Shown in pieces: positions 5,081-5,614 of a stretch of 39,586 nt of DNA. Made by a program: the position numbers and the translations under genes. The notes below the pieces were generated by a model. It saw only the letters and a list, made by a program, of their open reading frames with translations, made no database searches and was not told where the DNA came from. The number at the start of each line of letters is the position of its first letter. The stretch's first letter is position 1. Location: NCBI GenBank assembly GCA_003576845.1, contig QEVJ01000047.1:1-39586 (forward strand), in the 5' to 3' direction. The DNA is from Planctomycetota bacterium. Its GTDB lineage: Bacteria > Planctomycetota > Planctomycetia > Pirellulales > PLA5.

Positions 5081-5614
5081 TTACCGCCCGCGAATGATGG
5101 CGAGCAGCGTTTCGATCTGCGGCCGACCGGCGGGACCGTTGGCGACGTGGTGCAACCGCACGATGCCTTGCGGGTCGACGATCACGTCGCCGCCGAGTTG
5201 GTGTGTGTCACCGGTCGGCATCCGCACACGACCGCCGCGGAGGATCAGTTTCAAGTACAGCCAAATGACGCGCGGCCCGATCAAATCGCGCCATCGCGCT
5301 GCTTCCATGCCATAGGCCCGGTACAGCGAGCGATCGGCATCGACCACGATCGGCCACGGCAGCCCAGTTTCGGCGACGTAGGCGCGCGCGATCGGCGGCG
5401 ACTCGAACGTAACCACGAGCACGTCCGCGCCGAGCGAGGCCAGTTCCGATTCTCGTTCGCGCAACTGCACGAAATGATCGCGACACGGCAGTCAGGCCAG
5501 ATGCCGGTGAAAGACCAAGAGCAGCCACCGGCCGGTGTAGTCGGACAAACGGTGGATCGTGCCGGCCGTATCGGCGAGGGCGAAGTCGACGGCTTTCTGG
5601 CTGACACGGGACAT
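5081..5614 (-). CDS. Probable selenoprotein, peroxiredoxin-like (AhpC-TSA_2/SelL type), UxxC active site
   Basis: Read from the ATG at 5614, the frame stays open to 5081 apart from a single TGA at 5494-5492 (codon 41). With that codon read as selenocysteine, the product is 177 residues with a continuous thioredoxin fold: FALADTAGTIHRLSDYTG, then WLLLVFHRHLA-U-LPC-RDHFVQL, then GADVLVVTFESP, ETGLPWPIVVDADRSLYRAYG, LGGDVIVDPQGIVRLHH and a C-terminal helix. In this family the position is the first Cys of a CxxC active site, as in HxxCPFCRExxxxL, and the second Cys is present (C44). The related SelL proteins carry UxxU. Homology lies on both sides of the TGA without frame change, and a SECIS-like hairpin lies 19-36 bases after it. 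Expected role: thiol or peroxide reduction in the cytoplasm. The alternative is a nonsense mutation that happens to fall on the catalytic Cys codon. No selA, selB, selC or selD is in the window. Confidence 0.82.
5456..5473 (-). promoter_or_regulatory. Candidate bacterial SECIS hairpin
   Basis: On the minus-strand transcript, UUCGUGC and GCGCGAA pair over 7 bp (one U-G wobble) around the tetraloop AGUU. The loop begins 26 bases after the UGA and has G as its second base. This fits the published bacterial SECIS pattern (apical loop about 16-37 bases after UGA, G in the first two loop positions). It lies within the coding frame, as bacterial SECIS elements do. Confidence 0.65.

Follow-up and report, generated by a model that had tools for sequence, protein, structure and literature searches.

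A SelL-related thioredoxin/peroxiredoxin-fold protein of a planctomycete with a predicted selenocysteine at in-frame UGA codon 41

The locus considered here raises the question of whether a TGA triplet that interrupts an otherwise intact reading frame ends a gene or encodes an amino acid. The window, i.e. the whole stretch of 39,586 nucleotides that was analysed, contains on its minus strand (5614-5081) a frame of 177 codons that is interrupted by a single stop, the TGA at codon 41 (nt 5494-5492); the sequence around it reads ...RWLLLVFHRHLA*LPCRDHFVQL... (the asterisk marks the TGA). The original prediction read this frame as one thioredoxin-fold protein and a probable selenoprotein, which our analyses bear out through the Sec machinery of the genome, the conservation of the TGA, a covarying SECIS hairpin, the co-occurrence with SelB and purifying selection before and after the codon. 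From sequence evidence on the reading frame, column 41 with its Sec or Cys, the SECIS element, the machinery and two-sided selection, we predict with very high confidence that UGA41 is read as selenocysteine, via SelB and SECIS, in a 177-residue SelL-related selenoprotein of the thioredoxin/peroxiredoxin fold. The features of the gene are the following:

5081..5614, minus strand: coding sequence of the predicted SelL-related selenoprotein, 177 aa, ATG at 5614, TAA at 5083-5081, Sec codon 41, motif U41-L-P-C44 (from translation, family matches and alignment with 23 homologs)
5492..5494, minus strand: in-frame UGA, predicted selenocysteine codon 41 (15 sequences, that of the window among them, have TGA in this column, and 9 have a Cys codon)
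5483..5485, minus strand: codon TGT of Cys44, the putative resolving cysteine (conservation of this column in 24 homologs: 90% or higher)

With the TGA read as a residue, the protein matches the NCBIfam family NF040769 (SelL_rel_redox) with 181.9 bits over residues 7-173 (cut-off: 120), i.e. over the length of the model and above its curated cut-off, as well as Pfam AhpC-TSA (PF00578, 75.5 bits) and AhpC-TSA_2 (PF13911, 55.4 bits), both above cut-off. These matches and the translation agree with the view of a single thioredoxin-fold frame from 5614. The NF040769 cut-off is exceeded by all tested orthologs, TGA homologs and CxxC homologs; we found no mention of this family in the literature searched. 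The protein is probably cytosolic; no export signal was seen. A standard ORF call yields only 5081-5470, a product of 129 aa with a GTG start that has lost the active site, as had been anticipated for a start near 5470. This call is what one would obtain if codon 41 were an ordinary stop and the fragment (or the protein started from GTG 5470) a pseudogene in decay or a truncated gene, and TGA is indeed a normal terminator here, ending 6 of the 10 long ORFs of the window. We nonetheless regard this explanation as very improbable: the protein from 5470 would be devoid of the Sec/Cys position and of the conserved F-x-R-H motif, and the comparison with homologs described below reveals in-frame conservation and purifying selection on both sides of the TGA.

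Scanning genome collections and about 490 related genomes for homologs revealed that the TGA is kept at the same codon in orthologs with 76% (L059/L061), 58% (L062), 55% (L060/L030), 55% (L063), 48% (L031) and 38% (L032) identity; those close relatives that bear a name are MAGs of Planctomycetota. Each of the pairs L059/L061 and L060/L030 probably stands for a single genome that is represented twice, hence we count six independent orthologs, which span 37-76% identity to the window protein. The L062 genome contains two TGA copies of the gene. In the L059-type ortholog (76% protein identity) the TGA stands at the same codon although 25% of the nucleotides differ, which, together with the five further independent orthologs, is more than would be expected by chance. 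In the alignment of 24 sequences column 41 contains Sec in 15 and Cys in 9 (L033, L034, L064 and others) and no other residue, and it is adjoined by the invariant F35, R37 and H38; more distant family members carry TGA or Cys. The TGA thus occupies the place of the first Cys of CxxC, as originally proposed, with Cys44 kept as TGT, and the in-frame UGA aligns with the Cys or Sec of homologs, as is required of a bacterial selenoprotein. Compared with L059 (75% nucleotide identity), the window gene has NG86 dN/dS values of 0.22/0.62 ahead of the TGA (codons 1-40) and 0.16/0.99 after it (codons 42-177), which indicates that both parts of the frame are under purifying selection. Close relatives therefore retain the TGA followed by an intact, selected frame and not a normal stop with decayed downstream sequence; the retention of the TGA itself in at least six independent orthologs further argues against an ordinary stop. 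The phytase-like gene found downstream is also present in the nearest relative, and the context is not kept beyond it, so we propose no operon partner. The phage and plasmid collections contained only weak relatives of the Bcp/ResA type.

The same comparison bears on the possibility that the TGA is a sequencing or assembly error and the true codon is TGC or TGT (Cys). A single-base error would give such a pattern in one genome, and Cys is common in distant homologs; the identical TGA, however, is found in the independently assembled L059, L060, L031, L062, L063 and L032, it tracks the presence of SelB, and it is the TGA form that carries the hairpin described below, while the Cys homologs have none at that position. 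We consider such an error to be still less probable than an ordinary stop.

The genome from which the window derives (7.05 Mb, 99% complete; the window is on contig 266) encodes all the components that bacterial selenoproteins require: a tRNA-Sec with the anticodon UCA (69.9 bits), SelB (365 bits), SelA (513 bits) and SelD (362 bits), so the absence of the machinery, named beforehand as an outcome that would have spoken against selenocysteine, was not observed. The SelD gene itself (L026; G000:C145:10145-11071, minus strand) has an in-frame TGA at the Sec/Cys position of its family (LTDYASCAG*AGK), followed by the SECIS-like hairpin CCGCACAGGTTGTGCGG; judging by its sequence, SelD would be a selenoprotein as well, and we use it as an internal control, a second gene of the selenoprotein type. 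The TGA could in principle be reassigned or read as an amino acid other than Sec, e.g. Trp, and such read-through would likewise keep the frame open. TGA, however, terminates other genes of the window, the homologs have Cys and never Trp in column 41, and tRNA-Sec, SelA, SelB and SelD are all present; we attach as little weight to this reading as to a sequencing error. Selenocysteine is also the reading with which the distribution of SelB agrees: SelB above cut-off was found in 18 of 19 TGA-form genomes vs 2 of 17 that have the Cys form only (Fisher P = 5e-7, uncorrected for relatedness). The one TGA-form genome without SelB above cut-off (G149) has SelA. G289 and G025 possess SelA and SelB above cut-off and only the Cys form of the SelL-related family among the matches listed, which indicates that organisms able to decode Sec can retain the Cys form.

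Several further observations were made on the machinery. In G186 (L032:1498-3473) a selD gene with its own in-frame TGA (KGGG*ACKIG) immediately precedes the SelL-like TGA gene on the same strand. G339, G121, G473 and G477 have SelA-like proteins at about the family cut-off (255-280 bits) and no SelB above cut-off; these are possibly SelA paralogs with another role. The genome of the window also contains an unusually long tRNA-Cys (GCA; L010, G000:C119:34131-34222, minus strand, 92 nt), which scores 50.3 bits vs the tRNA-Sec cut-off of 47 bits, and, in G000:C198 at about 8.1-10.7 kb, clustered tRNA-like stretches with many partial matches to tRNA-Sec and tmRNA models, which may be a degenerate tRNA array of the kind described for planctomycetes (PMC4807772).

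If the UGA is decoded by SelB, a SECIS element is to be expected just downstream, and it had been suggested to look for one near 5440-5500. A covarying hairpin was found at this place:

5456..5473, minus strand: predicted SECIS hairpin UUCGUGC-AGUU-GCGCGAA with AGUU as its apical loop (5466-5463), 25 nt past the UGA (from folding, covariation in 14 TGA homologs and the published bacterial SECIS model, PMC13188914)

The published model (PMC13188914) calls for an apical loop of 3-9 nt, a stem of 4-16 bp, a G in the first two loop positions, a distance of 16-37 nt from the UGA and an MFE of at most -7.5 kcal/mol, and the 5473-5456 hairpin, with a stem of 6-7 bp and an MFE of about -8.5 to -9.6 kcal/mol, agrees with all these constraints. 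In single-sequence folding its energy alone is no better than that of shuffled sequences (z -0.1 to -0.6), hence the case for a SECIS element rests on position, loop and covariation. Among 14 TGA homologs, which were picked for an AG(U/G)U loop at that place or for close kinship and thus somewhat favour the structure, five of the seven stem pairs are changed on both sides, and pairing is possible in 86.7% of cells vs 72.3% after shuffling. The covariation score is 0.466 vs a shuffled mean of 0.210 (reached by 0/500 shuffles), and the mean contiguous stem is 5.8 bp vs 3.9 bp with arms swapped between sequences (0/10,000 permutations as good); as the sequences are related, these counts are not strict probabilities. 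The signal is destroyed when the partner arm is slid. The Cys homologs form only 0-3 bp at this register. The Leu codon of the loop is TTG in 12/12 TGA homologs that have Gln-Leu there and in 4/8 such Cys homologs, with TTG making up 20% of Leu codons in the ten long ORFs of the window. In the more distant TGA homologs L065, L066, L048, L051 and L057 the stem is not formed at this register, and L032 seems to use a shifted hairpin. A hairpin that covaries in this way is not what one would expect downstream of an ordinary stop. A covariance model of the element, searched against the genome, found convincingly only the window's own copy (E = 2e-15; next matches E ≥ 0.03, of which five were inspected and one had a TGA in a long open frame), and thus does not uncover the other members of the selenoproteome. 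An Rfam search of the window gave no match.

The original prediction regarded UxxC as an intermediate between CxxC and UxxU, a view that our results do not support: the Sec form common among Planctomycetota is UxxC, no UxxU form and no match with more than one in-frame TGA was present among the matches listed, and the tree of 34 sequences, in which the Sec and Cys labels cluster and three changes are needed, gives no direction. We speculate, with the balance about even, that Planctomycetota harbour a large, largely unannotated UxxC branch of the SelL family with its own recognisable SECIS (apex GC-AGUU-GC), and that Sec and Cys forms were interconverted in the phylum with the gain or loss of SelB. 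If true, the phylum would be a natural setting well suited to testing why Sec is retained.

An AlphaFold2 model built from 3 sequences (pLDDT 77.6; residues 107-139 poor) has a Trx/Prx-like fold in which residue 41 opens helix 42-53, after strand 30-36. The best structural matches of the model in the PDB are Bcp/PrxQ, peroxiredoxins, AhpE and ResA (TM-score 0.64-0.74 by query length), and the closest solved structure by profile is 9us9, a prostamide/PGF synthase (E = 1.8e-17). We propose that SelB-GTP-Sec-tRNA(Sec), held at the site by the hairpin 25 nt downstream, would recode UGA41, so that Sec would be inserted in place of termination; this residue would stand at the N-terminal end of the fold's first long helix. 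By analogy to the family, the Sec41 selenolate may attack a disulfide or peroxide substrate, and Cys44 could resolve the mixed or selenenic intermediate, giving a Sec-Cys selenenylsulfide that would then be reduced by a thioredoxin-type reductant. Fold and motif are thus consistent with Sec41 as nucleophile, Cys44 as resolving residue and an activity of a thiol peroxidase or a disulfide oxidoreductase.

Standard annotation misses or shortens such a gene, which renders a redox enzyme and its active site invisible in databases, and the present case illustrates that sequence data by themselves can lend strong support to an in-frame TGA at a catalytic Cys. A further gain is a clear comparison of Sec and Cys forms, the former tracking SelB, for a phylum whose selenoproteins are little described. 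The overall picture of selenoprotein biology is unchanged: UxxC and UxxU Prx-like selenoproteins are listed bacterial families (PMC13188914, PMC9312934, PMC2398784), SelL has been reported from fish, aquatic invertebrates and marine bacteria (PMC2397514), and planctomycetes are known to have selenoproteins and the Sec trait (PMC4807772), hence the gene is well supported as a further example of an already known kind.

Among the known systems, the protein agrees best with NF040769 (full-length match, 182 bits vs cut-off 120) and differs from it in nothing defining, with Sec instead of Cys at the first active-site position. With the bacterial Prx-like thiol:disulfide oxidoreductase selenoproteins (PMC13188914, PMC9312934) it shares the Prx/Trx fold, UxxC, PF00578 and a SECIS just after the UGA; this comparison covers fold, motif, family match and SECIS, and the protein best fits the SelL-related model. 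ResA, Bcp/PrxQ and AhpE are similar as the top fold matches of the predicted model but have about 20% identity, and the protein scores far below the cut-offs of the NCBIfam models for ResA, PrxQ and Bcp. PRXL2B/prostamide-prostaglandin F synthase (9us9), of the AhpC-TSA_2 family that the protein also matches (PF13911), is named by its depositors for prostaglandin chemistry, and such substrates have no support for the bacterial protein. SelL itself is similar by the NCBI family name, the Prx-like fold and Sec at the first position of the motif, but it has two Sec, two residues apart (UxxU; PMC3316567), which form a diselenide (PMC2397514), whereas the window protein has a single TGA and is thus not a fish-type SelL sensu stricto: its one predicted Sec is partnered by Cys44 (TGT).
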